Shown: in pieces, positions 18,267 through 58,470 of the stretch
How the letters are laid out: every line of letters starts with the position of its first letter
Numbering within the stretch: position 1 is the first letter of the stretch
The notes under the pieces: model-generated
Seen by the model: only the letters and a program-made list of their open reading frames with translations
Told to the model about the DNA's origin: nothing
Database searches by the model: none
Program-made: the position numbers and the translations under genes
NCBI RefSeq assembly: GCF_900094805.1
Contig: NZ_FMAT01000001.1
Span: 124,001 to 188,000 of the forward strand
Source of the DNA: Arthrobacter sp. NIO-1057
GTDB taxonomy: Bacteria; Actinomycetota; Actinomycetes; Actinomycetales; Micrococcaceae
Direction: 5' to 3'
Length of the DNA: 64,000 bases

Positions 18267-18337
18267 GGGGGTCCTCTACAGGATCTTCAAAGATTTCCAA
18301 ATCCGGGTCGACAAAACGAGATAGTTAAACCATGATG

Positions 18338-18347
18338 TATCTAGATA
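18338..18347. promoter_or_regulatory. Palindrome in the divergent crt control region
   Basis: A perfect TATCTAGATA palindrome lies in an AT-rich island (about 18300-18360) inside otherwise very GC-rich DNA, between the leftward TspO-like gene and the rightward MarR-crtE operon. MarR proteins bind short AT-rich palindromes, so this is a candidate operator for the adjacent regulator; it may also overlap a -10 element. Confidence 0.45.
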
Positions 18348-18379
18348 AGCTAAATATCAACCTTTCGAGATAAGTGATC

Positions 18380-22869: not shown

Positions 22870-23218
22870 AATGAGCCTGTGGTTCCTCGCCGCGGCCAGC
22901 CTCGTGTTCCTGGCGGGGCTGCTGGCCAGCCGACGGCGGCTGCGCACCGTGGCGCGGCCCATGCTGCTGGCCATGGGCCTGATGCTGCTGCTCACCGCGG
23001 TCTTCGACAACCTGATGATTGCCGCGGGCCTGTTCGACTATGGAAGCCACGCGCTGTCCGGGGTCCGGGTGGGCTTGGCGCCGATCGAGGATTTCTTCTA
23101 CGCCGCCTGCGCGGTGCTCCTGGTTCCGGGGCTCTGGTGGCTCACCGAGCCGCTGGAGCGCCGCCGCGCAGCCAGCCAGCGTTCTGCTAAGCCAACCGGA
23201 AGGACCCCGCAACTATGA
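22859..23218 (+). CDS. crtYf: C50 carotenoid epsilon-cyclase subunit (CrtYf)
   Basis: Second cyclase subunit, 119 residues, three hydrophobic segments, with the counterpart motif GLAPIEDFFYAACAVLL (PIED at 75-78). Start ATG 22859 has AAGGAG seven bases upstream and overlaps crtYe by 11 bases; a second in-frame ATG at 22871 is less likely. The pair CrtYe/CrtYf acts as a heterodimer. The stop overlaps crtEb by ATGA. Confidence 0.88.
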   Translation: MFLEMSLWFLAAASLVFLAGLLASRRRLRTVARPMLLAMGLMLLLTAVFDNLMIAAGLFDYGSHALSGVRVGLAPIEDFFYAACAVLLVPGLWWLTEPLERRRAASQRSAKPTGRTPQL

Positions 23219-33620: not shown

Positions 33621-34696
<1,076 letters not shown>

Positions 34697-34697
<1 letters not shown>

Positions 34698-42261: not shown

Positions 42262-42345
42262 CTCGACATTGTGTTGCCGGTTTGCGACCACCCTAGCTGG
42301 ATTGAATCGTTAGCCAGGGTGGGAACAAACCATGTCGCAAATTAG
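42259..42345 (+). CDS. Possible 28-residue small protein overlapping the sugar transferase start
   Basis: ATG 42259 lies seven bases after TTGGGGG and opens a 28-codon frame beginning MLDIVLPVCDHPSWIESLAR and ending at TAG 42345, 14 bases inside the next gene. The overlap suggests a translationally coupled leader peptide, or the remnant of a glycosyltransferase N-terminus (DIVLPV resembles such starts). No homologue was checked. Confidence 0.4.
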   Translation: MLDIVLPVCDHPSWIESLARVGTNHVAN

Positions 42346-43861
42346 CAGTAAGCTGCGCGAGGATCACGTATCTTCGCTCGGCACATGGACGCTTGCGCGT
42401 CCAGTAAGTACTCGGGACACCGGAACCATCGGTGCCCAAGGCCGCTCTTATTTGCGCAGACTCTATGGTACGGATCTGCTGGTCATTGCCTTGGTATGTG
42501 CCTTGCCGGCTATTGCACAAACCCAAGTCTCGCAGTTATCACAGGCAAGTGCGGGAAGCGCACGCTACTACGCGCTGGCCGGGTTGCTGTTGGCCTGTGC
42601 TTGGATGGCCAGCCTGCATTCCTTCAAAGCCCATCGTCTGGGAAGCATTGCTGTGGGGATGCAGGAATACAAGATCATGGTCTTTTCAGGGCTAGTGTTG
42701 GCGGGTTTCGTCGGGGTACTGATCTCGCTGACCGGCCAAGATGATCTGAAGATCTTCCTATTACTGTCCGTGCCGCTGGGATTGCCTGCACTGTTGCTGG
42801 GCAGGTGGACGTGGCGCCAGTGGTTGGCCTGGCGCAGTAGAAGCGGTTTTGCCTTGAGTAATGTTCTAGTCTTTGGCCAGCCCACCGACACCTCCTTCGC
42901 CGTCCGCCAGTTGTCCAAGAAATCCGGACCGGCCTATCGAGTGGTCGGCGTGCTGATGGACGGGGCGGCTGATCTGGAAGCTGAACGCGATATCCGCACG
43001 TCGGATCCAACTCTTCCGCTGACCTACGACACAGGTGCCATGGAACAGGACATCCAAAGGTTGCACGCTGATGCTGTCATCGTGGCCGGACCACTATCCG
43101 GAGGCAACGAAGCCTTGCAACAACTGGGCTGGCGACTTGAAGGCACAGGGACCCGTCTAATCGTGGTCTCCTCGCTCATCGGGGTTGCCAGTCGCCGTGT
43201 GCAGACCAGCCCGGTAGACGGGATGCCGTTGCTACATGTGGAACTGGCGAAGTTCACAGGACCTCGATACTTCTTCAAACGGGTCTTCGACATCGTCTTT
43301 TCGTCGCTCGCTTTACTCGCCCTGTCACCGGTTTTCCTAGCGATCGCTTTGATAATCCGCTTCGATGGGCCGGGAAAGGTATTTTTCTATCAAGAACGGG
43401 CCGGGCAGGACGGACGTCCTTTCAAAATGATCAAATTCCGCACCATGGTTCACGATGCGGAAGCGCAATTGGTTGCCTTGCAAGAGCTGAATGAAGGGGC
43501 AGGGCCACTGTTCAAATTGAAGGATGACCCGCGGGTCACACGTTGCGGCAACTGGCTACGCAAGCATTCATTAGATGAGTTGCCACAGTTCTTCAATGTC
43601 TTGCGCGGGGACATGTCGGTGGTCGGACCTCGTCCGGCATTATTCGCTGAAGTGGAAACCTATGAGGCTCACGCACGCCGCAGGTTGCTGCTGAAGCCAG
43701 GAGTGACTGGACTTTGGCAGGTTTCAGGTCGCTCAAACCTGGAGTGGAAGGAAAGTGTGCGGCTGGATCTTTACTACGCCGAGAACTGGACGGTTCTCAG
43801 CGATTTGCGGTTGATCTGGCGCACCTTCCAAGTAATGGTCAAGCCCGACGGGGCTTATTAG
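42332..43861 (+). CDS. Undecaprenyl-phosphate sugar phosphotransferase (initiating, WbaP/WcaJ type)
   Basis: Membrane enzyme of 509 residues that starts polysaccharide repeat units by moving a hexose-1-phosphate from a nucleotide sugar to undecaprenyl phosphate. Four to five N-terminal helices and a nucleotide-binding-like middle domain (VLVFGQPTDTSFAVRQL) are followed by the catalytic C-terminal domain from ~315: KRVFDIVFSSLALLALSP (membrane helix), FFYQERAGQDGRPFKMIKFR, RKHSLDELPQFFNVLRGDMS, VVGPRPAL and TGLWQVSGRS, all bacterial sugar transferase signatures. The sugar (often glucose or galactose) cannot be told. First large gene of the operon. Confidence 0.93.
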   Translation: MSQISSKLREDHVSSLGTWTLARPVSTRDTGTIGAQGRSYLRRLYGTDLLVIALVCALPAIAQTQVSQLSQASAGSARYYALAGLLLACAWMASLHSFKAHRLGSIAVGMQEYKIMVFSGLVLAGFVGVLISLTGQDDLKIFLLLSVPLGLPALLLGRWTWRQWLAWRSRSGFALSNVLVFGQPTDTSFAVRQLSKKSGPAYRVVGVLMDGAADLEAERDIRTSDPTLPLTYDTGAMEQDIQRLHADAVIVAGPLSGGNEALQQLGWRLEGTGTRLIVVSSLIGVASRRVQTSPVDGMPLLHVELAKFTGPRYFFKRVFDIVFSSLALLALSPVFLAIALIIRFDGPGKVFFYQERAGQDGRPFKMIKFRTMVHDAEAQLVALQELNEGAGPLFKLKDDPRVTRCGNWLRKHSLDELPQFFNVLRGDMSVVGPRPALFAEVETYEAHARRRLLLKPGVTGLWQVSGRSNLEWKESVRLDLYYAENWTVLSDLRLIWRTFQVMVKPDGAY

Positions 43862-44022: not shown

Positions 44023-44086
44023 TCGGATCCCGTGCATAACCGATGTTCGAAAGTAAAGCAGTACGGATTCTGTGGGGGATCAGAAA

Positions 44087-45070
44087 ATGCGTTCGTTGCG
44101 AGCACATGAACCGGGAAGTACTCGGGCACTAAACAAGAATTGCTCTGGCGGGGGACCGCCAGATGCACAACAACCAGCCCATCCTATAGCCCGAGCGGTA
44201 GAAGAATTCCCGCCGGCGGGTTCCGGGCGGGCTCATGAGGCGGAGTCGGTGGCATGTCAGTCGCGCGAAAACACGACTTGCTCCCCAGCTGCCGCCGGCT
44301 CCTTTGCCGTGCTGCCCGCACGACAGATAAGAATTCAGGTGATGCTGGGGATGGTGGCCGCCTCGGTCTTCTTGCTTGTAGCGTGCACTTCAACAACGCC
44401 CCAGGCATCCGAGCAGGAAAGCACGGTACCGCAGGCACAAGCTCCGTCCACACCATATGCACCGCCGACTGGGACTCCCAAAGCCAACCCGACGAAAGCG
44501 CCGGAAGATGGCGCCCCGCAACTGGAAGCAACTAAGGTGCCAAGCAATGAGCCGTCGCCCAAAGTCGAAAAGTCAGCAGACTACAACGGGGTAGCCTTCG
44601 AAGCCGACGAAGGTCATCTCCCGGTGGTTAAGCGTTCCGGTGAAGCAATCAGCGCCGCAGACCGCATGCCCACAACCATGAAGGATGCAACGGAAGCCAG
44701 CTATCAGGACGGGGTCAGCATCAAGGCTGTCGAGAGCGGAAATGGCATCGTGAAAAGCGAAGGGCCAGGCTATTTCACCGGAGCACGATACCGGGTTTAC
44801 GAAGTCAGCATCAGCAATGGCTCCGACGAGGAACTAGATATCTCCAACGTGATCATCAACCTTGTGCCGGGTAACGAACAGCAGGCTGCACTGCCGCTCT
44901 ACGGCGAGGTCGAGGCCTACGACTTTTCGGGGGCGATTGCCGCCGGTAAGCAAGCCAGTGCACACTACGCCTTTATCGTTCAGGATGCCGGTGCCGTCGC
45001 AAAATTGCAGGTGGATCTGGACAACCAGCACGCTCCAGCGTTGTTGACATTAAAGGCAGAGAAAAAATGA
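44087..45070 (+). CDS. Putative lipoprotein of the polysaccharide locus, paralogue of the gene at 60227
   Basis: From ATG 44087 (GGGGGA seven bases upstream) the product has 327 residues. A membrane segment ending in a lipobox, ASVFLLVAC, places the lipid Cys at ~100; the 80 residues before it are unusually long for a signal peptide, so the true start may be later (ATG 44342 in the same frame). After the Cys comes a Pro/Thr/Glu-rich linker (to ~165), then a beta-sandwich domain: SIKAVESGNGIVKSEGPG, YRVYEVSISNGSDEELDISN and ALPLYGEVEAYDFSGAIAAG, resembling DUF4352/Ig-like domains. The same Pro/Glu-rich linker plus domain occurs at 60227. It overlaps the flippase gene by ATGA. Role unknown; probably an extracellular assembly or anchoring factor. 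Confidence 0.68.
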   Translation: MRSLRAHEPGSTRALNKNCSGGGPPDAQQPAHPIARAVEEFPPAGSGRAHEAESVACQSRENTTCSPAAAGSFAVLPARQIRIQVMLGMVAASVFLLVACTSTTPQASEQESTVPQAQAPSTPYAPPTGTPKANPTKAPEDGAPQLEATKVPSNEPSPKVEKSADYNGVAFEADEGHLPVVKRSGEAISAADRMPTTMKDATEASYQDGVSIKAVESGNGIVKSEGPGYFTGARYRVYEVSISNGSDEELDISNVIINLVPGNEQQAALPLYGEVEAYDFSGAIAAGKQASAHYAFIVQDAGAVAKLQVDLDNQHAPALLTLKAEKK

Positions 45071-46359
45071 CTCTTGCCAAAAACCTGCTGAACAAGATTT
45101 CCGGTGTGGCTTCGTCTTCCACTGCTCAGGCCATACAGTCCCTGACGAGCCTGATCGTGCTGATGCTTGCAGCCAAGCTTCTTGGGTTGGAAGCACTAGG
45201 CCTCATCTCGACACTCTACGGAGCCCTGATCCTCGCAGCCGCCATCATCTCTGGCTTTGTTGGCGACTCTTTGACGGTACTTGACCGGCACGATCTTCAG
45301 GTGCAAGCGGGACTACGCTTCTGGCTCGCTTTGCTGGCCCTGTCTCTGGGAGTCATTGGAGCAATACTATGTTGGGTAGGCACCGATCTTGGTTTGCTCG
45401 GAGCCTTACTCTACGGCCTGGTTGTGGTTGCCTACATGGCTGAAGAGCTCGTTCGGCGCAGCTACATGGTCATCCTTAGCTTCGGAAAGTTGATCGTGGT
45501 GGACCTCGTGGTTCTAGGAACCACTAGCATCGTGCTGCTGGGGTTTGGCATCCTGTCCACCCTAACGCTGGAAGCGTTCTTCTTGGCTGTACTCGCAGGA
45601 CAATGTGCGGGAACCGTCTTTGGCTGGCTGCGCCTGCCAAACAGCGAAAAAGTACCGGCCCGCCGTCCTGCGCAGATCCGAGCCGTCGCCATGTTCGGGA
45701 TCTGGCGCGCAGCCCTACAGGGACTGCGTCCTGCACAGCTGACCGCGATGCGCGTATTGGTCACCGCCTTGATCGGTCTGGCCGCAGCCGGCGCGCTGGA
45801 AGCAGCCAGGCTGTACGCGGCTCCTGCAATGCTCTTAGTTAATGGCACCTGTGCCTATCTGTTTTCCTCATTGGCGCGAGACCGCGATGTCGGTGTTTGG
45901 CGTCAGCTGAAGAACACTGATTCGGTGGTACTCAAGTTGTTGCTGGCCACCGCAGGCTGCGCGGCCATCGGGCTGGTGTTGTTGCCTTGGGGTGGTCCTT
46001 TACTCACGGGCATCCTGCCATCAGGTCTTGCTGTTACCGGGTGGCTGGCATATGCCTGCGCGGTGGCGGCGTCAACGCCGTACGGCCTGTTGGCCACGGT
46101 ACATGAAAACGCGCGACCGGTATTTGTTATCAGGTTTATGGACAGCGTCCTCTCCGTGGCGTTGATTGCTTTGGTGTTGGTATTCACTTCGGACTACCGG
46201 CTGGTTCCGTGGGCCGCTGCCGCTGGTGCGCTGACCGGTGGCCTGATCATGCGGTGGTGGCTACACAAATCCGTTGCCGCGTATTTTCCCCCAGAGGGGC
46301 AGTTCGGGTCCGATTCGCTGAGCGACGCTGACTTTGCAAAGCCCCGGTATCAACAATGA
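45067..46359 (+). CDS. Wzx-like polysaccharide flippase
   Basis: Polytopic membrane protein of 430 residues with about 12 hydrophobic segments, beginning SSSTAQAIQSLTSLIVLMLA, the entry region typical of polysaccharide transporters in the MATE/MVF superfamily. Such flippases move lipid-linked repeat units across the membrane for Wzy-type polymerisation. No soluble domain. It overlaps both neighbours by ATGA, so lipoprotein, flippase and giant adhesin are translated in one block; this linkage suggests functional association of export and surface display. Confidence 0.82.
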   Translation: MTLAKNLLNKISGVASSSTAQAIQSLTSLIVLMLAAKLLGLEALGLISTLYGALILAAAIISGFVGDSLTVLDRHDLQVQAGLRFWLALLALSLGVIGAILCWVGTDLGLLGALLYGLVVVAYMAEELVRRSYMVILSFGKLIVVDLVVLGTTSIVLLGFGILSTLTLEAFFLAVLAGQCAGTVFGWLRLPNSEKVPARRPAQIRAVAMFGIWRAALQGLRPAQLTAMRVLVTALIGLAAAGALEAARLYAAPAMLLVNGTCAYLFSSLARDRDVGVWRQLKNTDSVVLKLLLATAGCAAIGLVLLPWGGPLLTGILPSGLAVTGWLAYACAVAASTPYGLLATVHENARPVFVIRFMDSVLSVALIALVLVFTSDYRLVPWAAAAGALTGGLIMRWWLHKSVAAYFPPEGQFGSDSLSDADFAKPRYQQ

Positions 46360-49300
46360 ACGGACTGGACATGGAAGAGCAGCAGATCACTGTAGGGCGA
46401 GGCACACCCGTGCGACGATTTACACGGGTACTGGCTTGCCTCGCCACCGCCGTGCTGGTCATCGCTGGCCTGAGCGTCATCCCAGCGACGGCCGCTGGCG
46501 AAGAAGAAATCGAGCTGCCTGAAACGGTCAGCGCAAATTATCTTCCCACCCCGCAACTGAACGGGGTGGCTTGGGACCTGCGTGTGCACGGGGATGTGGC
46601 GTATGTGGTCGGTTCGTTTACCCGGGCCCGGCCAAGCGGTGTGAATCCTGGCGGTGCCGGGGAAGTAGTTCGTAATAACGCCATGGCCTTCAACATCACC
46701 AGCGGGCAGATCCTGCCGTGGAACCCGAACTTCAACGCTCAGGTCATGGATATCGAATTCTCTCCGGACGGTACCCGCTTCTATGCAGGTGGTCAGTTCA
46801 CTGCTGTCAACGGCCAAGCCCGCAGTAAGGTCGCTGAATTCAACACGTCCAACGGCGCTTTGACTTCCTTCTCCACCAGTGTGGGTGGGTCTGTGGAAAC
46901 CCTCGCGGTGACCAGCGATGCGCTTTACTTGGGTGGTTCTTTCAACTCTGTGGGCAACCAGTCGCGGCGCAATCTCGCCAAGCTCAACCGCTCCAACGCC
47001 GAACTGCAAGCGTGGGCACCGACCACCGATGACATCGTACACGGCATCATTGCCACCGATGCCAGCGACCGTGTGGTCATCGGTGGACGATTCCAGACGA
47101 TCAACAGCGAGCCCAAGGTTGGTATCGGAGCAGTGAACGAGACCACTGGCCAGCAGGTGGCTTGGAGCTCCACTCCGGTTCCGGCACGGATCGATGACAA
47201 TGCCCGCGCGTGGGTCGTGGACCTGAAACTGGAAAACGGTGTCATCTACGCGGCCAACAATGGAATGGGCTGGCACTGGTTCGACGGCCGCTTTGCCGCC
47301 GAGTACGCCACCGGAGACTTAGTCTGGCTTGATAATTGTTATGGATCGACTTCATCGATCACCATCATGGGCGACGTGGTGTACTCCACACCACATGCGC
47401 ACGACTGCTCGTCGGTCAACGGATTCCCTGAGGAGAATCCCATGATTTGGAAGCGTGCGCTGGCAGAAACTGCCTTCGCCACCGGCACGGACACTACCGC
47501 GCCGTCGAATAATTCCTTGGTGCGCAACCAACCGATTCCAACCTTGCTGCACTGGTACCCCTCGATTAATACGGGTACCTATACCGGGCAGTATCAAGGC
47601 GGTTGGGCCATGGACAATAACGGGGACTATTTGGTTCTCGGTGGCGAGTTCACCAGATTGAACAACGCCAATCAGCAGGGTTTGGCAGTCTTCCCTAAAC
47701 GGTCCCTTTCTTCGAATTCCATCCGACCCGAGTACACCGCTCAGCTAAAACCCTCGGCGATTTCTCAACACAGTGGCTCCGTTCGCGTAGCTTGGCCAAC
47801 CACGTGGGATATTGACGACGAAACACTGACTTACGAGCTACTGCGCGATAACTCGCTCACCGCAATCGATAGCCAGCAAGTGCCGTCCATCTGGTGGAAG
47901 AAGCAGTCGCTGGGCTTCCGAGATGACAGTGTTGCACCGGGCAGCACGCACACCTATAGGGTTCGGGTTTCGGACCCGTCGGGCAATAACTACATCGGTC
48001 CACGTTCTGATCCAGTGACCGTCAGCAACAAGGCCGAGAGCCCGTATACGCAAGTCTTGCGTGACACGGGCGCGGATATCTACTATCCACTGAACGAATC
48101 CGAGGGCACCGTAGCCTTTGATAACATCGGCTTCGTCGATGCCGACGCCACTGATGCTTTGCAGCGCGGCGTGCCGGGCGCGATCAGTGACGATGACGCC
48201 AGCGGATTCAGCGGTCAGTCCCTGGCGAGTCGAAATACGGCGAGCGCACCAGATACCTTCACTACCCAGCTATGGTTCAAGACCGACAGTGACCAGGGCG
48301 GCAAGCTGATTGGGTACGGTAGCTCGGCCACCGGTGACTCGGGAAGTTATGACCGGCATGTCTGGATGGATAATTCTGGACGCCTGCACTTTGGCACATG
48401 GCTGGGGTGGGCGGCAACAGTCAGTTCCTCGGCAAGCTACAACGACGGGCAATGGCACCAACTGACGGCTTCTTTGGGTCGAGCTGGAATGCATCTGTAT
48501 GTTGACGGGCTGAAGGTCGCGGAGCGTACCGAAGTCACCAGCGGCCAGGCCTACTCAGGAATGTGGCGCATCGGCGGGGACAATCTCAATGGCTGGCCTA
48601 ACCAGCCATCGAGTAAGACCTTCAACGGCGAGTTGGATGAGGTAGCGATCTTCAACGAGCAGATCGACGCAGCGACAGTGTTACAGCTCTTCCAATCCAC
48701 CGGACGCACCGCGGACATTCCCGATCCTCCAACCGATGCCTACGGACTGGCGGTCCACGGCGATGAACCGCAGCTGTACTGGCGCTTGGATGAAACCCAA
48801 GGCAACGTGGCCAAGGACAATACCATCGCCCGCAATGACGGAACCATCAACGGTTCGGTCCGCTACGGGGAAGAATCCGCTATCGGCCACGGCACATCAA
48901 TGGGTTTCGGCCAGTCAGATGCCACGGTGGTCTCCAATCGGGCTATACAGAACCCTACGGTGTTTTCCACCGAGGCCTGGTTCCGAACAACAACGGAGAC
49001 CGGGGGCAAAATTATCGGATTCGGTAATGCCGCCAGTGGCTTGTCATCCAGCTATGACCGTCATGTCTACATGCGCAATGACGGCACCCTAGTTTTCGGC
49101 GTGTACACCGGCACCGAAAACCTCGTTACCACCGGCCGGTCCTACAATGACGGGGGCTGGCACCATGTGGTGGCCACGCTGTCTGGCGAGGGCATGAAGC
49201 TCTACGTGGATGGTGCGTTGGCCGGAACCAACCCACAAACCTCGGCCGAGCCGTTTAATGGCTACTGGCGCATAGGCGGGGACCGGGTATGGTCCGGAGC

Positions 49301-51821
49301 CAGCTCCGCGTGGTTTGATGGCGAAATTGATGAGGCCGCAGTTTACGCCAGAGCGCTAACCCAAGCCGAGGTCAATGAGCACTACGGGGTTGTCGGGGAA
49401 CCGAACCAAGACCCATTGGCCGATTTCACCAGCACCAGCCAAGGACTGGCGGTGGCCTTCGATGCCAGCGGATCAACCGATGCCGACGGAACCATTGCCA
49501 GCTACGCTTGGGACTTCGGTGACGGGCAGGAGACAACCGTGCAGAGCCAAGGGGTGCTGCACGAATACGCACAGGCCGGTACCTACACGGTGGTGCTGAC
49601 CATTACCGATGATCGCGGTGGCACTGCCACCAAGACGATGCAGATCGAGGCCAAAGCCGTCAACCAGCCGCCGGTGGCCGCCATAACCAGCGAACAGACC
49701 GGTTTAAAGGTAAGCTTCAGCGGTTCCGGATCCGAAGATCCGGAACAGGGAGAACTGTCCTTCGAATGGGACTTCGGCGATGGCAGCGAGAAGGGTACAG
49801 GTCAAGACGTGGAGCATGCCTACGGCACAGGCGGAGAATACACGGTGACTTTGACGGTCAGTGACAACGCCGGGGCCACTGCCCAGACACAGAGTACCCT
49901 GATCGTACAAAATGCTGCTCCACTGGCTGCCATTGAACTGGGTGTGGACGGTTTGAGCATCCATGTTGATGGTTCGGGATCCGCAGACCCCGAGGGCGGA
50001 GAACTTGACTATGCCTGGGACTTCGGCGACGGGGCAGAGGACACCGGGGCCGTGGCCACCCACGAATACGCAGAACCGGGAACCTACGAGGTCACCCTCG
50101 TGGTGACTGATGAACATGAGGCCACCGACACGGTGACACAGACGGTGCAAGTGAAGGTGCCCAACACTGCACCGGAAGGTGCCTTCGATTCCACCGTAGA
50201 CGGGCTGACCGCTACCTTCAGCGCCGCAGCATCACAAGATGTCGACGGACAAATCGTGTCTTGGGAATGGGACTTCGGGGACGGAACCGAGGGGAGCGGT
50301 GCCGAGGCCATGCACCAATACTCCAGCGGCGGAACCAAGACTGTGACGCTCACTGTCACCGATAACGAAGGCGCCACCGGCACCGCGTCTGGCGAGGTCA
50401 CCGTGCAAGACCCGGCAGAGCTGGAACCCACTGCTGCCTTCAGTTGGGAAGCGGATGAACTGTCGATTGCCGTGGATGCCTCCGCTTCGCTGCCTCCGGC
50501 AGCCGGCGGGGAGATCACCGGATACCTGTGGGATTTCGGTGACGGAACCCAAGGAACCGGCGTGACGGCCAGCCACAATTATGTCTCGGCCGGCACCTAT
50601 TCGTTGACGCTGACCGTACAAGCGGGAGAGCGGGAAAGCACCATCAGCCAGGTGGCCACCGTTGCCCTCGCCCAAGGTCCGCAAGCACAGTTCAGCACCT
50701 CGGTCCACGGACTGGCACTGGGGGTTGATGCCTCAGATAGCACGGCCGGGGATGCGCCGATTACCAGCTACGAGTGGGACTTCGGCGATGGGCAAAGCGC
50801 TCTTGGTCAAACTGCGCAGCACCGCTACGCCGAAGACGGCCGATACACGATCACCCTGACAGTCAGGGATGACAACGGGATGGAAGCACACACCGAAACC
50901 GAAGTGGATGTCCAAAATTCAGCTCCGGTGGCGGCCTTCAGCCTGGAAGTGAACGGCCTGGAAGTTCAAGTGGATGCTACTGCCTCCAGCGATGCTGATG
51001 GTCAGATTGCCTCATACTCATGGGACTTCGGAGATGGTAAGACGGCCAGCGGCAAGAATGCATCCCACGAGTACGCAGAGCCTGGCGACTACCCGATCAA
51101 GCTGGTGGTCACCGACGAAGATGGGCGAAGCGCCGAACTGGTTCAGCAGGTGCAAGTCACGGTCGACGCCGAACCGGCCCTGCTCGTTTCCGATACCTTT
51201 GGACGCACCATTTCCGACGGCTGGGGTGAAGCCGATACTGGGGGTACTTGGATACGGCAAGGCTCATCATCGAACTACAGTGTGCTCGAGGGCACCGGCC
51301 GGATCCGTATGTCAACCGCCGGCAGCGGTCCACTATCGTGGCTACCAGCCGCGGTACGGGAAGGGGACTTGCGCATCAAACTCAGCCGCGACAAGGCAGC
51401 CACCGGGGGAGGCATCTATCAGACGGTGACCATCAGGGACATTCCTGGTGTTGGAGCGTACCGCGCCAAGGTCCGATTCCTGTCCAATGGCCAGGTGGCA
51501 CTGACCTTGGAGAAGGTGGTTTCCGGCAGTGTCAGCGCATTAAGTGCTGAGACCGTCATCGGAGGCGTGGATGGTTCACCGGGCGAAGCCGTATGGCTGC
51601 GCCTGCAGGCTGAAGGTAGTGATTCCACAAGCTTGCGGGCCAAGGTCTACAACCGAGGCCAGGATGAGCCGGTGAACTGGCAGCTCCACGCCACTGACTC
51701 CACTGCCGCACTACAGGCGGAAGGTCGTTTAGGGCTGTCGGTATACCTGTCTGGTTCGGCGAATAATGCACCGGTTTACGGTGGATTCGATGATTTGGAG
51801 GTGCGGGAAATCGCCGAATGA
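46356..51821 (+). CDS. Giant secreted propeller/FN3/LamG/PKD surface protein
   Basis: Secreted protein of 1821 residues. A signal peptide (RFTRVLACLATAVLVIAGLSVIPATAAG, cleaved near 48; an alternative ATG is at 46371) is followed by a beta-propeller-like region (~50-460; repeated LYLGGSFNSVGNQ, FYAGGQFTAVNG units), an FN3-like domain (~464-558), two LamG/concanavalin-type domains (~564-783 and 794-1013; YDRHVWMDNSG and YDRHVYMRNDG), seven PKD domains (~1014-1608; YxWDFGDG in each), and a C-terminal ~210-residue domain starting DTFGRTISDGWGEADTGG. No LPXTG or membrane anchor. Likely a carbohydrate-binding adhesin or glycan-organising protein. Overlaps the flippase gene by ATGA. Confidence 0.9.
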   Translation: MNGLDMEEQQITVGRGTPVRRFTRVLACLATAVLVIAGLSVIPATAAGEEEIELPETVSANYLPTPQLNGVAWDLRVHGDVAYVVGSFTRARPSGVNPGGAGEVVRNNAMAFNITSGQILPWNPNFNAQVMDIEFSPDGTRFYAGGQFTAVNGQARSKVAEFNTSNGALTSFSTSVGGSVETLAVTSDALYLGGSFNSVGNQSRRNLAKLNRSNAELQAWAPTTDDIVHGIIATDASDRVVIGGRFQTINSEPKVGIGAVNETTGQQVAWSSTPVPARIDDNARAWVVDLKLENGVIYAANNGMGWHWFDGRFAAEYATGDLVWLDNCYGSTSSITIMGDVVYSTPHAHDCSSVNGFPEENPMIWKRALAETAFATGTDTTAPSNNSLVRNQPIPTLLHWYPSINTGTYTGQYQGGWAMDNNGDYLVLGGEFTRLNNANQQGLAVFPKRSLSSNSIRPEYTAQLKPSAISQHSGSVRVAWPTTWDIDDETLTYELLRDNSLTAIDSQQVPSIWWKKQSLGFRDDSVAPGSTHTYRVRVSDPSGNNYIGPRSDPVTVSNKAESPYTQVLRDTGADIYYPLNESEGTVAFDNIGFVDADATDALQRGVPGAISDDDASGFSGQSLASRNTASAPDTFTTQLWFKTDSDQGGKLIGYGSSATGDSGSYDRHVWMDNSGRLHFGTWLGWAATVSSSASYNDGQWHQLTASLGRAGMHLYVDGLKVAERTEVTSGQAYSGMWRIGGDNLNGWPNQPSSKTFNGELDEVAIFNEQIDAATVLQLFQSTGRTADIPDPPTDAYGLAVHGDEPQLYWRLDETQGNVAKDNTIARNDGTINGSVRYGEESAIGHGTSMGFGQSDATVVSNRAIQNPTVFSTEAWFRTTTETGGKIIGFGNAASGLSSSYDRHVYMRNDGTLVFGVYTGTENLVTTGRSYNDGGWHHVVATLSGEGMKLYVDGALAGTNPQTSAEPFNGYWRIGGDRVWSGASSAWFDGEIDEAAVYARALTQAEVNEHYGVVGEPNQDPLADFTSTSQGLAVAFDASGSTDADGTIASYAWDFGDGQETTVQSQGVLHEYAQAGTYTVVLTITDDRGGTATKTMQIEAKAVNQPPVAAITSEQTGLKVSFSGSGSEDPEQGELSFEWDFGDGSEKGTGQDVEHAYGTGGEYTVTLTVSDNAGATAQTQSTLIVQNAAPLAAIELGVDGLSIHVDGSGSADPEGGELDYAWDFGDGAEDTGAVATHEYAEPGTYEVTLVVTDEHEATDTVTQTVQVKVPNTAPEGAFDSTVDGLTATFSAAASQDVDGQIVSWEWDFGDGTEGSGAEAMHQYSSGGTKTVTLTVTDNEGATGTASGEVTVQDPAELEPTAAFSWEADELSIAVDASASLPPAAGGEITGYLWDFGDGTQGTGVTASHNYVSAGTYSLTLTVQAGERESTISQVATVALAQGPQAQFSTSVHGLALGVDASDSTAGDAPITSYEWDFGDGQSALGQTAQHRYAEDGRYTITLTVRDDNGMEAHTETEVDVQNSAPVAAFSLEVNGLEVQVDATASSDADGQIASYSWDFGDGKTASGKNASHEYAEPGDYPIKLVVTDEDGRSAELVQQVQVTVDAEPALLVSDTFGRTISDGWGEADTGGTWIRQGSSSNYSVLEGTGRIRMSTAGSGPLSWLPAAVREGDLRIKLSRDKAATGGGIYQTVTIRDIPGVGAYRAKVRFLSNGQVALTLEKVVSGSVSALSAETVIGGVDGSPGEAVWLRLQAEGSDSTSLRAKVYNRGQDEPVNWQLHATDSTAALQAEGRLGLSVYLSGSANNAPVYGGFDDLEVREIAE

Positions 51822-51905: not shown

Positions 51906-52001
51906 ATGAGTTTGTATTCAGTTCGTAATGTCTCCGGGGGACGCGCAGGAGTAACGCTGCGCTTGGGGACAGAGCCGAATATTGGGGAGGTTTGCGGCTG
52001 A
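51906..52001 (+). CDS. Possible 31-residue small protein / leader
   Basis: ATG 51906, preceded by GAAGAGGAA, opens a 31-codon frame ending at TGA 52001 (MSLYSVRNVSGGRAGVTLRL...). Its 3' half contains the paired boxes TTGGGGA (51963-51969) and TTGGGGA (51982-51988) followed by GGTTTG, seen also at 36415 and 36431. The signal may therefore be in the DNA/RNA rather than in the peptide. Confidence 0.25.
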   Translation: MSLYSVRNVSGGRAGVTLRLGTEPNIGEVCG

Positions 52002-52044
52002 TTACCACCGCAGGCACAAAGGAGTTCACTGGGGAGGACTCATC

Positions 52045-52779
52045 ATGCTACAAAAACAACAAGGGTACCGTTGGGCAGTTGCAGAACTGCGCCAGCGGCA
52101 GAAAACCAATAAGGGAGCGCCAGCTTACTCACGATTCGTGAACAGACCACTAGGTCGCCGGCTGGCAGCACTGGCCTACTTGCTTCGGCTAACGCCCAAT
52201 GGTGTCACTGGAATCAGTGCCCTGTGTACCGCTGCCGGGCTGGCAGTGATCGCCCTGTTGGAACCGTCCATCGGCTCTTCGGCGCTGATCACGGCATTAC
52301 TGGTACTGGGCTACGCACTGGATTCGGCTGATGGACAACTCGCCCGACTTCAAGGTTCCGGATCTGCCGCTGGCGAATGGCTTGACCATATTGTCGATGC
52401 AATCAAGACCTCCGCGCTGCACGCAATGGTACTGATCTCGTGGTACCGGTTTTATCCAGTTGAAGGCGCCTGGTATCTGGTGCCTATTGCCTACCAGATC
52501 GTGGCCTGCAGCCTGTTTTTCTCTATGATCCTTACCGACCAGCTGCGTCGGCTGGCCTCCGGGAAAACGGGGCACTACCTGCAGGGTCAGGGCAAGAGCT
52601 CGGCATGGTATTCCTTGGCCGTGGTTCCTACCGACTTTGGCCTCATCTGTCTTGCCTTCTTGACCCTGTGGTTGCCATCGGTGTTCATTATTGTTTACGT
52701 CCTGCTGTTGCTGGCCAATGCAGGCTTCCTGATGCTGGCCTTGAACAAGTGGTACCGGGAGGTGAAGTCCCTTGGCTAA
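52045..52779 (+). CDS. CDP-alcohol phosphatidyltransferase family membrane enzyme
   Basis: Membrane protein of 244 residues from ATG 52045 (GGGGAGG upstream; earlier in-frame codons lack a site). The complete CDP-OH-P signature D-x2-DG-x2-AR-x8-G-x3-D-x3-D is present from about residue 92: DSADGQLARLQGSGSAAGEW followed by LDHIVD. Six helices are visible. These enzymes move a phospho-alcohol group from a CDP-linked donor to another alcohol. Because it lies between the adhesin and chain-length genes, and a cytidylyltransferase is encoded at 59767, it may decorate the polysaccharide or its lipid carrier; a phospholipid role cannot be excluded. Confidence 0.88.
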   Translation: MLQKQQGYRWAVAELRQRQKTNKGAPAYSRFVNRPLGRRLAALAYLLRLTPNGVTGISALCTAAGLAVIALLEPSIGSSALITALLVLGYALDSADGQLARLQGSGSAAGEWLDHIVDAIKTSALHAMVLISWYRFYPVEGAWYLVPIAYQIVACSLFFSMILTDQLRRLASGKTGHYLQGQGKSSAWYSLAVVPTDFGLICLAFLTLWLPSVFIIVYVLLLLANAGFLMLALNKWYREVKSLG

Positions 52780-52864
52780 ATCACTTGATTACCAAGATCA
52801 TCGTATCTGGCCAGCTGCATCAGAACTGGGTTGGGGTGCGCATGCGCAGCGGGAGGCGACAGGA

Positions 52865-54157
52865 ATGGATCTAAGTGATTTCCTCTTCGTACTTCGCACC
52901 CGCATGTGGTGGATCGCGGCCAGCACCCTTGCCGGGATTATCGCCTCCATTGCCATCACCCTAGGGATGACCCCGGTGTATACGGCGAAGGCGACGTTGT
53001 TCGTCAGCGTTAATTCAAGCCAGGACACGGCCTATGCACGTGGCCAGTTCGCGCTGCAGCGTGTGGGTTCTTATCCGCAGCTGGTCAACGATCCGAAACT
53101 CATCAACCAGGTGATTAGCGGGCTTGATCTGGATCGTAGCTTTCAGGACGTTAAATCCAGTGTGACTGCCACCAATCCGGTGGATACAGTGCTCCTTGCA
53201 GTCACTGCGAAAGCTCCAGAGGCCCAGCAAGCTGCGGATATCGCCAACACGGCTGCCGGATTACTGGCCGAGTCCATCCAGAATCTGGAGAACACTGACC
53301 CGAAGAAGCTAGAAGTCAAGGCAGAGTTGTCTGTTCCGGCGGCAGCGCCGCAGTACGCCACCGCGCCTCGCAAATCAGTGAACCTGGCCTTGGGGGCGGT
53401 TTCGGGCGCCAGCTTCGGATTGTTGCTGGCGCTGGCGCTGCACAAACTGGATCCGAGGATCCTGCGAGGCAGGGATGTCGAACGACAATTGCGCATGCGT
53501 GTGCTTGGCACAGTGGTAGCGCAGCCCAAGGAAACGGCCCGTGGCAACCCGACAGGAATCCAGATCGGATACCGACAGATGGTGTCAAACCTGCTGATGG
53601 CCAATGATGGGCGCTTGCCACAGCGCATCTTGGCCCTTAGCACCCGCGGTGATGCGGTGATCGATGGGCAACAGCTGGCCCAGACCCTGGCGGCCATGGG
53701 CAAGCACTCGGTGATTGTGCAGGCCGACAGGCAACTGGAGCCTTTGCGCCAAGATGACGCACATGGCGCCGGTCTGGCCCAAGTCCTCGCCGGCACCAGC
53801 GAGCTGCATGATGCGCTACAGCATATCGAGTCGGTGCCGATGGGCTACCTACCTACCGGACCGCAACCTGAAACACTGCGTCGTTTTGATGTGTTCGCCG
53901 GACTAGACAGTTTGATCGCTTCCCTTGAAGAGGAATTTGACGTCGTGATCTTCGTGGCCAGCTTGCAGGGCCAGCCAGTGGATGCCACCGCGGTGGCCCT
54001 GCATAGCGATTGCGTGATCCTTACCGGACGCGCACGGCGCACCACCTACAGTCAGGTCTCCAGAGCCCTGCAGGAACTAAACGCGGTGCGAGTTGGCGCC
54101 ACCGGGTTGGTGTTAGTGGGTAAGCCTTCGCGCTTCCGTCACCGGCGGGGTGTCTGA
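52865..54157 (+). CDS. Wzz/CapA-type chain-length protein with pseudo-tyrosine-kinase domain
   Basis: Protein of 430 residues from ATG 52865 (GGGAGG eight bases upstream, giving the usual MDLSDFLFVLRTR start; TTG 52772 is rejected). Wzz domain: helix WWIAASTLAGIIASIAI at ~14-30, an outer loop, and the second helix near 200 with the PxxP-like stretch preceding it (SVPAAAPQYATAPRKSV). The C-terminal domain has the position and length of a BY-kinase, but Walker A reads STRGDAVIDGQQ (no GKS/T) and Walker B reads FDVVIFVAS (no Asp), and there is no Tyr cluster. It is thus predicted not to bind ATP productively. Role: control of polymer length and export. Confidence 0.87.
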   Translation: MDLSDFLFVLRTRMWWIAASTLAGIIASIAITLGMTPVYTAKATLFVSVNSSQDTAYARGQFALQRVGSYPQLVNDPKLINQVISGLDLDRSFQDVKSSVTATNPVDTVLLAVTAKAPEAQQAADIANTAAGLLAESIQNLENTDPKKLEVKAELSVPAAAPQYATAPRKSVNLALGAVSGASFGLLLALALHKLDPRILRGRDVERQLRMRVLGTVVAQPKETARGNPTGIQIGYRQMVSNLLMANDGRLPQRILALSTRGDAVIDGQQLAQTLAAMGKHSVIVQADRQLEPLRQDDAHGAGLAQVLAGTSELHDALQHIESVPMGYLPTGPQPETLRRFDVFAGLDSLIASLEEEFDVVIFVASLQGQPVDATAVALHSDCVILTGRARRTTYSQVSRALQELNAVRVGATGLVLVGKPSRFRHRRGV

Positions 54158-54159: not shown

Positions 54160-55443
54160 ATGCCTCCGGTCGTTAGTGCGTCTTGGTCACCGACGACGCA
54201 GTTCCCGGTGCATCGACGCTACCGGATCCCGCGTCTGTGGCAGTTGAACCTGCTGTGGATCCTCTTGGTCTTCAGCGTGGTCGCCTGGCGCCAAGGAACG
54301 CTGTTCACCGGCGGGCTGGACCAGGTGGTTGTACTCAAGGCGTTGCTGCAAACGGCGGTACTGTGCTGGGCAATCTTGCTGTGGATGTGGAGCGAAACCC
54401 GCCAGCCGGTGGGTGCGCGTAGCATCGCATTGCTCGCAATAGTCTTGGCCCTGAGCGTGATTGGGGCGATGGCAGATGGTAATTTTCTGGCTTCGTCCAT
54501 TATCGCGGTCCGCGTGGCAATGCTGGCCGTGACGGTGCTGTTCATCATGCGGGTTTACCCGGCACACGAAGTTCTGCTGGCCATGTGTGTCGGGCTGTCC
54601 GCGGTTGGCATTATCAGTTCTGGCACTGGGCTTGTATTGGGTGGAGGTGGTCGTCTAGCTGGCGGCATCCCTCCGCTGAGCCCCAATGAGATCGCCTTGC
54701 TTGCCGGTGTTCCGGCACTGGTTCTTTTTCATCAAGCGCTGCGCGCACAGGTGCGGTGGTGGCACGTTGGAATGCTGGTGGTGCTCAGCGCAATCCTGCT
54801 GCTCTCCGAATCGCGCACCGCGTTGATCGCAGCGGCATGCACAGCAGCAGGCATGCTGTTGATGCTCCGCAGGATCCCGTTGCAGACCGTCGTGGCGGCA
54901 CTAGCAGCTCTGCCACTGGTGTTCTACCTGGTGTTCCTGACTCCGGTACTGCAGAATTTGATGGCTCGTGAGGACAGCGCCTCGGTGATGACGCTGAACT
55001 CCCGGACCATCAGCTGGTCGGTAGTGCTGAACCTGCCCAATGATTCATGGCAAAGATGGATCGGCGCGGGACTAAGTCAAAAAACCATTGCTGTCGAAGG
55101 ACAATACTGGGACGAGCAAGTTTTCGATTCTTCGTGGATTTCCTTGCTCGCGCAAACTGGAATTATCGGAACACTGCTCGTGGCTCTCTGGGTTCTATTG
55201 ACAGTTTTCGCCGCTTTGCGTTCAGAGAGACTGCGCAGCTTACTGTTGCCGCTTTTGGCATTCGTGATCATCCGCAGTGTCATGGAAAACGGGTTGGTAG
55301 ATGCCGGTGCGCTATTCCTGATTTTCATGGTGCTCGCTCTGATGATGGAACCAGCCAGCAAACGTGCAGCCTTGGACTGGGACCACGCTGCACCCCTGCA
55401 ACGTAATCGGGTGAAGGACCCTCCGGTGGCGATGGGCAACTGA
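54160..55443 (+). CDS. Wzy-like O-antigen polymerase/ligase
   Basis: Polytopic membrane protein of 427 residues with about 11 helices and one larger extracellular loop (~255-330) containing NSRTISWSVVLNLPNDSWQRWIGAGLSQ, the arrangement of the Wzy_C/O-antigen ligase family. GGIPPLSPNEIALLAGVP and LLLSESRTALIAA are typical (SP-N and S-x-S-R-T-A). It would polymerise flipped repeat units outside the membrane, with Wzx and Wzz from the same operon. It starts two bases after the chain-length gene; the operon ends at the hairpin at 55454. Confidence 0.87.
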   Translation: MPPVVSASWSPTTQFPVHRRYRIPRLWQLNLLWILLVFSVVAWRQGTLFTGGLDQVVVLKALLQTAVLCWAILLWMWSETRQPVGARSIALLAIVLALSVIGAMADGNFLASSIIAVRVAMLAVTVLFIMRVYPAHEVLLAMCVGLSAVGIISSGTGLVLGGGGRLAGGIPPLSPNEIALLAGVPALVLFHQALRAQVRWWHVGMLVVLSAILLLSESRTALIAAACTAAGMLLMLRRIPLQTVVAALAALPLVFYLVFLTPVLQNLMAREDSASVMTLNSRTISWSVVLNLPNDSWQRWIGAGLSQKTIAVEGQYWDEQVFDSSWISLLAQTGIIGTLLVALWVLLTVFAALRSERLRSLLLPLLAFVIIRSVMENGLVDAGALFLIFMVLALMMEPASKRAALDWDHAAPLQRNRVKDPPVAMGN

Positions 55444-55521: not shown

Positions 55522-58119
55522 TTAACGCGGGTAGTTGCCGATACGCTTGGACGCCGGACCCTGGCCAATCAGGGAAGCGATATCGCTCGGCAATGCGGTG
55601 GCCTGACTGTTTTTTCCCGTCACACTGGTGGCCGGATTGTTGGCGCTGGTGAGCACCGTGTTGGCCGTGATTTCAAAAGAATTCAACTCTTGCCCGGTGG
55701 ACTGGCGGAAGGTTGGCAAAGTGGTGAATACCTCTGGGTTTCCGGCGGCTTTGGACCAGACAGCGGACCACTTCGGATTTGTGGTATTAATGCGGTGGTA
55801 AGCATTGGAGGCCAGAGAGATCTTCATCTGGTCTGCGGTATAGCTGCCGGAGTAGTCTTCAACAGCAAGAATCGCGTTGCCGCCGCCGGTATTGGAGAAC
55901 ACATTGTTCTTCGCGACAATGTTCTTATTGATCCATGTCATCGTGGTGTCTGGGAATGGCTGGCGCGGATCGTGTCCGGGGTCGGACTTGTTAGCGCCGC
56001 GCCGTGCATCCTGCACGATGTTGAGCACCCGGTTCTTTCCGCTAATGGTGTTGTTCCAGATCTTCACATCGCTGGTGTTGTTCAGTTTGAAGGCAAACCC
56101 CGAATTTTTTGCGATGCGGTTGTTGGCCACCACAGATTTGGCGGAGATTTCCAGTGACAGACCGTGACCGGTATTGGAGATTAAGTCGTTATTGAGGACC
56201 TTGGAATCGTAGACGGATTCATCCAGCCATAGTCCCGGACCGTAGTTGCTGTTGAGCTTGGAATCTTTCACCGTTACGCCTCGGGTGCGCCCGATCTTTA
56301 GCCCGCCAGAGACTGGAGAGGTATTGAACCGCTCGTGGTTATTACCAGTGGAGGTCAACTTATTGACAACTAGTCCATCAGAGTACACGGCGTTCATGCC
56401 CAGCATGCCGCTGCGTTGGATTTTCACGTTGCTCACGGTGTTCTTCACAGCGCTGACATTCAATCCGGTGGTCGCACTATCTTCGATGGTCAGGTTCTGC
56501 ACAGTGATGCCCGGCTTCTCGGCGGTAACGGCACCCATGTCAGGCACCGAAGGAGCGTATTTGCGCACGTTGATGCCTGACACAGTGGAATTGTCGCTGC
56601 GGATGCTCAGGGCCTTGACCAGCATGGAAGCGCGCACTGTTTTTCCAGTGGGGTCGGTGCCCAGATGCAGTTTGTCATTGGTGCGGTCTACATAGAAGGT
56701 GCCCGGCTTGAGGCTGGAAACGGAGGACACTTGGGTCTGCTTGCTCCCGTTGATCCATACCTGGTCGGGGTGGGCTGCCATGGGATAGCTGGAATTGATG
56801 AAGCCCCATGCTTCAGAAGTATTATCGTTAGCCCCGCGGGTGTAGGTCGGGCTGCTATCAAAATCGTAGTTCCAGCCCGATTTCACCCAACCATTGCTCG
56901 TGGCAGCGAAGCCAGTGACGGCTTGGGAACCATCGAGCCACACAGTTTCGCCCGGATATTCGCGTAGCTTGATGCTTTTGCCTGTGGGGATCACTACCGA
57001 CTCATGATAAGTGCCACCGCGCACTACGATGGTCTGCCCGTTAGCGGCTTTTGAAATGGCCTTAGACATGGTGCGCAGTGGTGCCGCAACGGTGCCACCG
57101 GATGCATCATTGCCGGACGCGGAAACATACAGTGCAGTGGACGGGATAGCACTCAGGGTCTCGGCACGCGGTGTCTGATCGCCGAGGTTTATGCTTTCGG
57201 AGTTGGGGGCAGTTTCATCGGTATCAGGGGCTGTGGTGGGAGGTGCGGAAGGTGATGGGGTAGGGGCTAGTTCTGGGGTCGGCGCCGGCGGTTCGGAAGT
57301 GGTGCGCGCGACAAGATTATCTACGTGCAAACCGGAATTCTTGGTGGCTCCGGCAGAAAGGTACCCGCCTATGCGCAAGTTGCCTTTGGCCGAGGCCAGC
57401 GCACTGGATGCGTCTTGCGTTGCTAACTGCCATCCCGGGGTGCGCTCTGCGGCTTCGAAAGCCCTGGCCTTCAATGATGTCGTTCCGTTGCCGGTGACGA
57501 AGAAGTCAAGATGGTATGCGGTTCCCGGGCGAGCTGCTGCGCTGATCTGCTTAGATTCCAGGACGTTCTTTTTCCCGTTGACGGTCCGTGAAATTTCCAG
57601 AGTCAATGTGCCAGTGCTTTGCAGCCGAAGCGACGCGGTGTATTCGCCATCAGCGGTACTCCGGGCGCTAAGGTGCGCGTAGGACGAACCCGTATCTGGT
57701 AGTGAGTCAAAGGAAACATCAACACCGGTCTGTAGGTTGGCCGCATTGATTGCCGCCGTTGCGAGGCTGAGTTTGCCGGGCACTAAGGTGATTTCACCCT
57801 GAGAGCCATCTACGGAGAAACGGTCTGGGCTGTTGGCTAAGTAGCTGATTCCACCTGAATTAGTGCCCCAACCAGAGTCAATCGTGCGATTCATGGCATC
57901 GGCGACCAATGTGGTCGATGCGACCGCTGGAACTGGGTTTAAAGAGGTGGCAATGATGCCGCACGCAGCGGCCAAGGCTAAGGCCGCGATCAGTCGTGGC
58001 CGATGGGAATTTTGGTCGGATTGATCCTGACCGAGGGGAACGTGATTTTTGGGAGAAAGGTTCAGCAAAGGATCCTCGGAACTCAACCCGTGCTCCCCAG
58101 CAAAACAGGCCTTGTTCAT
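55522..58119 (-). CDS. Secreted right-handed beta-helix protein with shared N-terminal domain
   Basis: Protein of 865 residues. A long n-region is followed by a signal/membrane segment (RPRLIAALALAAACGIIATS, ~42-61). Residues ~71-275 form the domain shared with the two giant proteins (TLVADAMNRTIDSGWGTNSGG). A Pro/Thr linker (276-330) leads to ALYVSASGNDASGGTVAAPL, the typical entry of DUF1565/parallel beta-helix enzymes, and many helix rungs (NNDLISNTGHGLSLEI, NNRIAKNSGFAFKLNNTSDV). Such folds act as polysaccharide lyases or epimerases; the catalytic residues were not identified. It is the only gene of the locus on the minus strand from 34 to 64 kb. Predicted role: trimming or modifying the exported polysaccharide. 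Confidence 0.85.
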   Translation of the reverse strand: MNKACFAGEHGLSSEDPLLNLSPKNHVPLGQDQSDQNSHRPRLIAALALAAACGIIATSLNPVPAVASTTLVADAMNRTIDSGWGTNSGGISYLANSPDRFSVDGSQGEITLVPGKLSLATAAINAANLQTGVDVSFDSLPDTGSSYAHLSARSTADGEYTASLRLQSTGTLTLEISRTVNGKKNVLESKQISAAARPGTAYHLDFFVTGNGTTSLKARAFEAAERTPGWQLATQDASSALASAKGNLRIGGYLSAGATKNSGLHVDNLVARTTSEPPAPTPELAPTPSPSAPPTTAPDTDETAPNSESINLGDQTPRAETLSAIPSTALYVSASGNDASGGTVAAPLRTMSKAISKAANGQTIVVRGGTYHESVVIPTGKSIKLREYPGETVWLDGSQAVTGFAATSNGWVKSGWNYDFDSSPTYTRGANDNTSEAWGFINSSYPMAAHPDQVWINGSKQTQVSSVSSLKPGTFYVDRTNDKLHLGTDPTGKTVRASMLVKALSIRSDNSTVSGINVRKYAPSVPDMGAVTAEKPGITVQNLTIEDSATTGLNVSAVKNTVSNVKIQRSGMLGMNAVYSDGLVVNKLTSTGNNHERFNTSPVSGGLKIGRTRGVTVKDSKLNSNYGPGLWLDESVYDSKVLNNDLISNTGHGLSLEISAKSVVANNRIAKNSGFAFKLNNTSDVKIWNNTISGKNRVLNIVQDARRGANKSDPGHDPRQPFPDTTMTWINKNIVAKNNVFSNTGGGNAILAVEDYSGSYTADQMKISLASNAYHRINTTNPKWSAVWSKAAGNPEVFTTLPTFRQSTGQELNSFEITANTVLTSANNPATSVTGKNSQATALPSDIASLIGQGPASKRIGNYPR

Positions 58120-58470
58120 TCAATATAGGTAACGGTTTCTGGGTCGCGCGGGCCCGCAATAAATGTTGGCATGGAATGAATCGTTATTCAATCGTGATGT
58201 TTCTCTCTTAGTTCACACATTTCGATGTTGACGAGGAAACTTCCCCCAGTGGCGAGTGAGTAATATTGGCGACCTTGAACAAGTAAATTGCGGGTAACGC
58301 GAGTATGCGTTCACTCGTGCGCCACGACGGTACGACACATATGCTCACCAGATGAGGAACGCATGCTTGCAATATGTTCCGGACCTTGCCGTTGATTTTG
58401 GGGATCGACGCCGGTGTAGCAAGCAAGCAATCGAACGTTGATTCTGCTGTTTAGATTTGGGGGTAACAGA
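58120..58470 (+). promoter_or_regulatory. Divergent control region between the beta-helix and glycosyltransferase genes
   Basis: A 351-base gene-less stretch. It contains the conserved segment copy B (58312-58358: CACTCGTGC, CACAT, GCTCAC, ATGAGG), a TTTTGGGGA box (58396-58404) and TTGGGGG-TAACAGA directly before the glycosyltransferase ATG. A 29-codon frame at 58352-58441 has no ribosome-binding site and is not called. Confidence 0.5.
58312..58358 (+). promoter_or_regulatory. Conserved upstream segment, copy B
   Basis: CACTCGTGC (58312-58320), CACAT (58336), GCTCAC (58343-58348) and ATGAGGA (58352-58358), matching copy A at 42138-42185 in order and nearly in spacing. It lies upstream of the glycosyltransferase gene. 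Confidence 0.5.

Follow-up and report, generated by a model that had tools for sequence, protein, structure and literature searches.

A shared terminal domain with a predicted lectin-like fold on surface proteins of an actinobacterial polysaccharide locus

RESULTS

Three copies of one domain in a polysaccharide locus

Our analysis concerned a 64,000-nucleotide stretch of the genome of Arthrobacter sp. NIO-1057 (hereafter the window), in which a domain of ~205 residues, termed CTD here, occurs at the C-termini of two giant proteins (giants 1 and 2) and in the N-terminal part of a beta-helix protein, all encoded within one polysaccharide locus (Table 1). An earlier note on this DNA had proposed that the three copies are related, and both translation and a genome search bear this out. 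More specifically, copy 1 matched exactly three places when searched against the whole NIO-1057 genome (E up to 10), with E values of 8.5e-137 (self, 100%), 2.3e-41 (39% identity), and 4.1e-16 (32%), so that the kinship of the three copies is not a matter of chance. Giant 2 and its CTD copy are cut by the end of the window, with the stop codon 524 bases further on; the first 1001 residues of giant 2 lie inside, and the remainder and the tail were read from the adjoining sequence.

Giants 1 and 2 have a common layout (propeller, LamG, PKD, CTD), and their propellers are 34% identical. Pfam matches in giant 1 were Rax2, Laminin_G_3 (twice), and PKD_4 (seven times), with DUF5122 below its cut-off. 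Since the giants are paralogues, the beta-helix protein alone counts as an unrelated host of CTD; the idea that the domain moves between the ends of otherwise unrelated proteins thus stands as regards its shifting position and fails as regards the two giants. As previously noted, giant 1 has neither an LPXTG motif nor a membrane-spanning tail. Of 55 propeller giants whose C-terminus is closed, 54 stop 3 to 7 residues past their last CTD (that of locus L073 stops 85 past it), and a search for sortase anchoring (LPXTG plus membrane tail) found LPXTG in the last 60 residues of none of the 55. The propeller itself carries invariant Cys, His, and Trp positions in the propeller alignment (e.g., C280, H299, H301, and C303), which hint at a role beyond that of a scaffold.

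Table 1. Features of the polysaccharide locus in the window
Feature	Coordinates	Strand	Basis
dTDP-rhamnose-type nucleotide-sugar genes (RmlB-like; dTDP-sugar isomerase-RmlD fusion)	33681..36115	+	
Initiating sugar-phosphate transferase (Bac_transf)	42332..43861	+	
DUF4352-like lipoprotein-type partner	44072..45070	+	Lipobox-like LVAC; alignment; no Pfam match of its own
Multi-spanning membrane protein, probable Wzx-type flippase	45067..46359	+	Hydrophobicity and place; no Pfam match
Giant 1, 1821 amino acids, signal-like N-terminus	46356..51821	+	Pfam; same layout in relatives
Giant 1, beta-propeller	46500-47795	+	
Giant 1, two LamG, followed by PKD	48036-49400	+	
Giant 1, seven PKD, followed by CTD	49401-51170	+	
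CTD copy 1, C-terminus of giant 1	51180..51821 (domain 51180-51818)	+	Translation, genome search, AlphaFold2 model
CDP-alcohol phosphatidyltransferase family protein	51982..52779	+	
Wzz-type chain-length protein	52772..54157	+	
Wzy_C / O-antigen-ligase-type polymerase	54160..55443	+	
Beta-helix protein, 865 amino acids, signal-like N-terminus	55522..58119	-	Pfam Beta_helix, fold, profile alignment
Helix part of beta-helix protein, GH120 XylC-like	55525-57144	-	
CTD copy 2, N-terminal part of beta-helix protein	57295..57918	-	Translation, genome search
Glycosyltransferase (DUF1972/GT4 type)	58438..59658	+	
DUF4352-like lipoprotein-type partner of giant 2	60227..61000	+	Lipobox-like LVSC; DUF4352 E 5e-5
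Giant 2, paralogue of giant 1: propeller, LamG, two PKD, CTD	60997..64000, on past window	+	
CTD copy 3 (start), C-terminus of giant 2	63895..64000	+	Translation, genome search, sequence beyond window

The locus continues past the window end with a GDPD protein (2594-4039 of locus L004), glycosyltransferases, two pyruvyl-transferase-like proteins, and a UDP-glucose-dehydrogenase-type protein. Two large adjacent LuxR-type regulators (877 and 895 amino acids; 36447-41764) are encoded upstream of the polysaccharide genes.

CTD is a distinct sequence family with a predicted lectin-like fold

Sequence searches related CTD to no established family. In Pfam, the window copy matched no family, and none matched more than 3 of the 113 aligned members (best E 0.003); in NCBIfam, for which only the window copy was searched, the best match had an E value of 0.06 and scored 12.8 bits, the cut-off being 426. 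Searches of PDB sequences likewise gave no convincing match. TOM40 matches in the PDB (E 0.03) and stray Pfam matches of one to three members were taken as chance.

The AlphaFold2 model built from the 113-row alignment (predicted local distance difference test [pLDDT], 97.6; predicted template modeling score, 0.93) consists almost entirely of strands, which are predicted to form the two-sheet antiparallel jelly-roll of the concanavalin-A-like lectins and glucanases. Foldseek returned 227 PDB matches at E <= 1e-3. The best 50 of these were headed by the C-terminal beta-sandwich of a GH43 protein (5jox; E 2e-7), and also included a GH16 lichenase (1gbg), CBM66 (4b1m; template modeling [TM] score by target, 0.74), the carbohydrate-binding module (CBM) CBM2 of the phage J-1 Dit protein (5ly8), and the L-type lectins ERGIC-53/VIP36. 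The predicted fold is therefore that of carbohydrate-binding modules and lectins, in line with the role of a glycan-binding module suggested in the earlier note, rather than a known catalytic or an unrelated one.

The GH43 sandwich is part of an enzyme chain, whereas CTD is a separate module on unrelated proteins. CBM66, a fructan-binding module of Bacillus subtilis, resembles CTD in being a concanavalin-A-like jelly-roll and an accessory module of sugar enzymes, but the likeness is seen by fold only: identity over the structural match is 18%, no CBM66 chain was listed in the PDB sequence searches, and the solved CBM66 chains have 161 to 165 residues as opposed to ~205 in CTD. A CBM66 module is reported to bind a derivative of a bacterial exopolysaccharide (PMC11002231).

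CTD clusters with Wzx/Wzy-type genes

To relate CTD carriers to Wzx/Wzy loci, as the earlier note had proposed, we examined 295 genomes of the family Micrococcaceae, in which CTD was detected at E <= 1e-4 in 64 genomes (16 of 32 genera). Dropping 13 of these, whose matches were weak or partial, left 51 strong carriers with 98 copies. In 43 of the 51 strong carriers (12 of 13 genera), a Wzz gene lay no more than 15 kb from a CTD copy, versus 0.65 expected; for Bac_transf genes, the same distance held in 40 of 51, versus 0.75 expected, both expectations assuming uniform placement; the enrichment beside CTD spans 12 to 13 of the 13 genera. In three strong carriers (G067, G111, and G242), neither gene lay on the contig within 30 kb of CTD.

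A scan of genome contigs, in which the best 80 of 122 relatives were kept, yielded 79 loci, 61 of which were at least 17 kb long and are referred to as the wider loci; the other 18 were left out of the neighborhood counts. Two pairs of wider loci overlap (L052/L084 and L089/L116), and counts given as distinct leave overlaps out. A homologue of Wzz, Wzy, the flippase, or Bac_transf was found in 42 of the 61 wider loci (40 of 59 distinct) versus none of 38 random regions, with the neighbors sought using the window's own proteins, and with the loci drawn from several orders and the random regions from the window's family only. These 38 controls are what remained of 40 random 20-kb regions after two that fell on CTD loci had been counted apart. 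A homologue of the CDP-alcohol transferase was present in 26 of the 61 wider loci. Thus, CTD carriers and Wzx/Wzy loci cluster tightly, and the domain does not occur mainly in genomes that lack polysaccharide loci.

Hosts of CTD beyond the window

The propeller of giant 1 was present in 56 of the 79 carriers, mostly together with LamG and PKD, and a second PKD-CTD unit was frequent. Among ten non-propeller carriers that were scanned, we found four metallophosphoesterase-PKD proteins, two Ser/Thr kinases, two beta-helix proteins, a GH88 enzyme with an F5/8 domain, and a CBM96/Rhs protein. In one relative from the same genus, CTD precedes an enzyme that reads, by eye and from sequence only, as GH16-type. 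Within the genus, 6 of 18 genomes searched carry CTD, the source genome included.

In a tree of 206 CTD copies, the beta-helix copies fall into four pure clades and the viral copies into five, some of them weakly supported. Of 57 tandem copies, 21 had their nearest neighbor within the same protein, with no clear sign of concerted evolution.

The Ser/Thr kinases, from Thermocatellispora and Streptosporangium (L104, 8807-10642; L111, 8687-10642), terminate in CTD and are perhaps glycan sensors. The metallophosphoesterase-PKD proteins (L056, L063, L117, and L118) likewise carry a terminal CTD; considered alongside the GDPD gene that follows giant 2 and the CDP-alcohol transferase, they may point to a phosphate-bearing glycan.

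The beta-helix carrier resembles a GH120 glycosidase

The helix part of the beta-helix protein was predicted with a pLDDT of 96 as a right-handed beta-helix like that of the GH120 beta-xylosidase XylC (3vst), which ranked first both in Foldseek (E 5e-17) and in a profile search (E 1e-19). D382 and E405 of XylC align to D308 and E332 of the helix part, both invariant in 24 of 24 sequences, although the aligned piece that bears them is the weaker of two (15.7 bits). D382 of XylC is the nucleophile and E405 the acid/base (PMC8954004). The two proteins are thus alike in fold and catalytic pair, at 16% identity in the fold match, and differ in that the beta-helix carrier has a signal-like N-terminus, lies in an exopolysaccharide locus, and often bears CTD. 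On sequence and model, it looks like a GH120-type glycosidase.

Among 27 distinct beta-helix relatives, some of whose genes are cut by locus ends, CTD was N-terminal in 11, C-terminal in 1, and absent from 15. Such changing of ends, or absence, among relatives is the behavior of accessory carbohydrate-binding modules.

CTD occurs in tail proteins of actinophages

By tblastn, CTD was matched by 17 phage records (16 of Streptomyces phages, one unassigned), three of which are second entries for the same phage, and a scan of viral contigs found CTD on 68. In Streptomyces phage Lizz and in Dagobah, the domain is borne by a minor tail protein, close to its C-terminus, and the Lizz carrier, gp24, is encoded directly after the tape measure gene. 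In a structural search of a viral library, Streptomyces phage KimJongPhill gave the best match, with a minor tail protein (TM score 0.85). All seven viral carriers scanned, as well as the window copy, matched the final part of PHROG 24476, which is named phosphodiesterase.

Use on the phage virion has parallels in the CBMs on tails of other siphophages, namely Lactobacillus casei phage J-1 and the lactococcal 936 phages; CBM2 of the J-1 Dit protein has a fold like that of CTD (E 1e-5) at 9% identity. CBMs in lactococcal phage virions are reported to bind the hosts of these phages (PMC6669499).

A DUF4352-like partner accompanies the giants

Each giant in the window is preceded by a gene for a DUF4352-like protein: the partner of giant 2 overlaps the start of its giant by 4 bases, and the flippase-like gene sits between the other partner and giant 1. 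Neither reaches the Pfam cut-off for DUF4352, the partner of giant 2 scoring 23.9 bits versus 25.9 and that of giant 1 giving no match. Searched with a profile, the partner was present at 43 of the 51 loci that have a propeller (42 of 50 distinct) versus 1 of 19 non-propeller loci. It lies directly upstream, on the same strand, of 38 of 78 propeller open reading frames (ORFs); the others are often second giants, or another gene intervenes. A strongly hydrophobic segment was found in 51 of 53 partner ORFs (52 distinct) and a lipobox-like pattern in 15, one of them doubtful.

Of the 295 Micrococcaceae genomes, 37, from 10 genera, had the full-length propeller (E < 1e-130); precisely these had the partner (E < 1e-19), and every one of them carried CTD. 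These cut-offs were set after the lists had been seen, related genomes among the 37 are not independent, and G269 was counted as having a full propeller although its propeller is broken into two parts (E 1e-99 and 8e-86). A further 51 family genomes had weaker or partial homologues of the propeller, and a further 5 had weaker partner-like matches. For 45 of the 46 strong partner genes, a propeller gene follows downstream, on the same strand, at a distance of ~0.5 to 4.2 kb measured between the starts of the two matches, the gene left out being one before a broken propeller (G255:C2). In a phylum-wide sample of 227 genomes, the full propeller was found only in the source genome, with partial ones in three others, and the partner in the source genome plus one weak match, such that this sample is uninformative on co-occurrence.

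DISCUSSION

We propose that CTD is a concanavalin-A-like jelly-roll carbohydrate-binding module, not an enzyme, that holds surface proteins and a glycosidase on the polymer made by its locus, a reading to which we assign a probability of about 50%. Its predicted lectin-like fold and its hosts (giants, a probable sugar-cleaving enzyme, and phage tails) mean that it is probably a sugar-binding module; the proposal draws support from that fold, from the glycan enzymes that accompany the domain, from its location in Wzx/Wzy-type loci, and from its use in phage tails. From these we infer its ligand, the polysaccharide of the adjoining Wzx/Wzy-type genes, and its anchoring role. On the giants, CTD would act as a distal grip by which the long rod of propeller, LamG, and PKD domains stays bound to the polymer coat; the opposite end may be held, or assembled, by the membrane-anchored DUF4352-like partner. 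In the beta-helix protein, CTD would tether the GH120-like glycosidase to its substrate, with the polymer being trimmed or released, and in the minor tail proteins of actinophages it could help to grip host surface sugars.

The strongest competing explanation, though on balance an improbable one, is that the anchor is the membrane-held DUF4352-like partner, and that the lectin-type tail faces outward as an adhesin for foreign glycans (plant, soil, or other cells) rather than for the cell's own polymer. The matching occurrence of full-length propeller and partner, the near restriction of the partner to propeller loci, and the hydrophobic segments and lipobox-like motifs of the partner all suit it. 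It leaves unexplained, however, why the GH120-like enzyme encoded in this locus should bear CTD as well and why CTD is so tightly linked to Wzz, and the contact between partner and giant on which it depends is hypothetical.

Alternatively, CTD may bind a general component of the actinobacterial wall (peptidoglycan, teichoic acid, or a lipid-linked glycan) and not a locus-specific polymer, which we consider unlikely. Its association with Ser/Thr kinase, metallophosphoesterase, and Rhs-type proteins, in many cases away from exopolysaccharide genes, would fit such a ligand, as would its presence in phage tails that match the end of PHROG 24476 and the lack of consistently fast CTD divergence; the strong enrichment beside Wzz and Bac_transf in nearly all genera with strong carriers argues against it. 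More improbable still is a ligand-free structural cap or oligomerization domain of secreted rods: CTD is terminal on most giants and its copies are repeated with PKD spacers, but unrelated proteins, probable enzymes and phage tails among them, also carry it at the N-terminus, in the middle, or at the C-terminus, and its nearest folds (best 50 of 227) are those of sugar-cleaving or sugar-binding proteins. Finally, a catalytic GH16-like domain, conceivable in that GH16 enzymes are among the nearest folds, is very improbable, as the GH16-type ExDx(x)E motif is missing from 168 of 172 CTD copies and the four matches are all viral, at differing sites in the domain.

Several points weigh against the proposal that CTD is a carbohydrate-binding module for the polymer of its locus. 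(i) The concanavalin-A-like fold class is not restricted to sugar binding. Profile comparison revealed no sequence kinship between CTD and the giants' own LamG (Laminin_G_3) domains, which are concanavalin-A-like as well (hhalign probability 0.1, with three LamG rows only), so that their likeness is one of fold only; that CTD is a divergent copy of LamG was rejected on the same comparison. (ii) Wzz, present in 50 of the 51 strong carriers, is also present in 174 of the 244 remaining family genomes, such that most Wzz-bearing genomes have no strong CTD. (iii) An exopolysaccharide core homologue was found at 37 of 47 wider loci with a propeller carrier, yet at just 5 of 14 without one. (iv) Ser/Thr kinases, metallophosphoesterases, and Rhs proteins also occur among the carriers, and, in the phylum-wide sample, CTD was found at E <= 1e-15 in just 9 of 227 genomes, the source genome included. 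(v) Fast divergence of CTD, considered as a sign of tuning to strain-specific glycans, was inconsistent across relatives: in one, CTD is 67% identical versus 82% for the propeller and 57 to 62% for the PKD repeats, whereas in distant relatives its conservation equals or exceeds that of the propeller. (vi) The membrane-anchored partner is plausible as the anchor of the giants.

Taken further, the carbohydrate-binding proposal suggests an actinobacterial machine for polysaccharide retention that has not been described, a scheme we regard as tentative and somewhat doubtful. In it, the DUF4352-like membrane protein and the secreted propeller-LamG-PKD giant would together make up a rod, and the lectin tail of this rod would hold the Wzy polymer non-covalently on the cell; the CTD-bearing GH120-like glycosidase would trim the polymer; and phages would have borrowed, or would share, the lectin to land on the coat. 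How retention on the cell is achieved in actinobacteria, for secreted polymers as well as for giant non-sortase proteins, is a largely open question.

Although the fold superfamily is already known, our searches of open-licence papers listed no description of CTD as a family, of its association with polysaccharide loci, of the pairing of partner and giant, or of the GH120-like companion. The present analysis provides a confidently predicted domain that has no Pfam or NCBIfam entry, a two-gene unit whose members have the same distribution across 295 sampled genomes, and a probable glycosidase whose catalytic residues can be identified. If phage tails do use CTD on the same sugars, the domain would also offer a handle on host recognition by actinophages.

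Additional observations in the window

An 8-kb stretch elsewhere in the window (16000-24000) has a G+C content of 67 to 69%, versus 54 to 60% in the rest, with three tRNA-Lys genes and a tRNA-Leu gene near it. It holds a carotenoid-type gene set (polyprenyl synthase, phytoene synthase, oxidoreductase, lycopene cyclase, and UbiA) and looks to have been imported from an actinobacterium of higher G+C content. A PADLOC scan of eight other window proteins gave a single match, that of a desaturase-like model to the carotenoid oxidoreductase.

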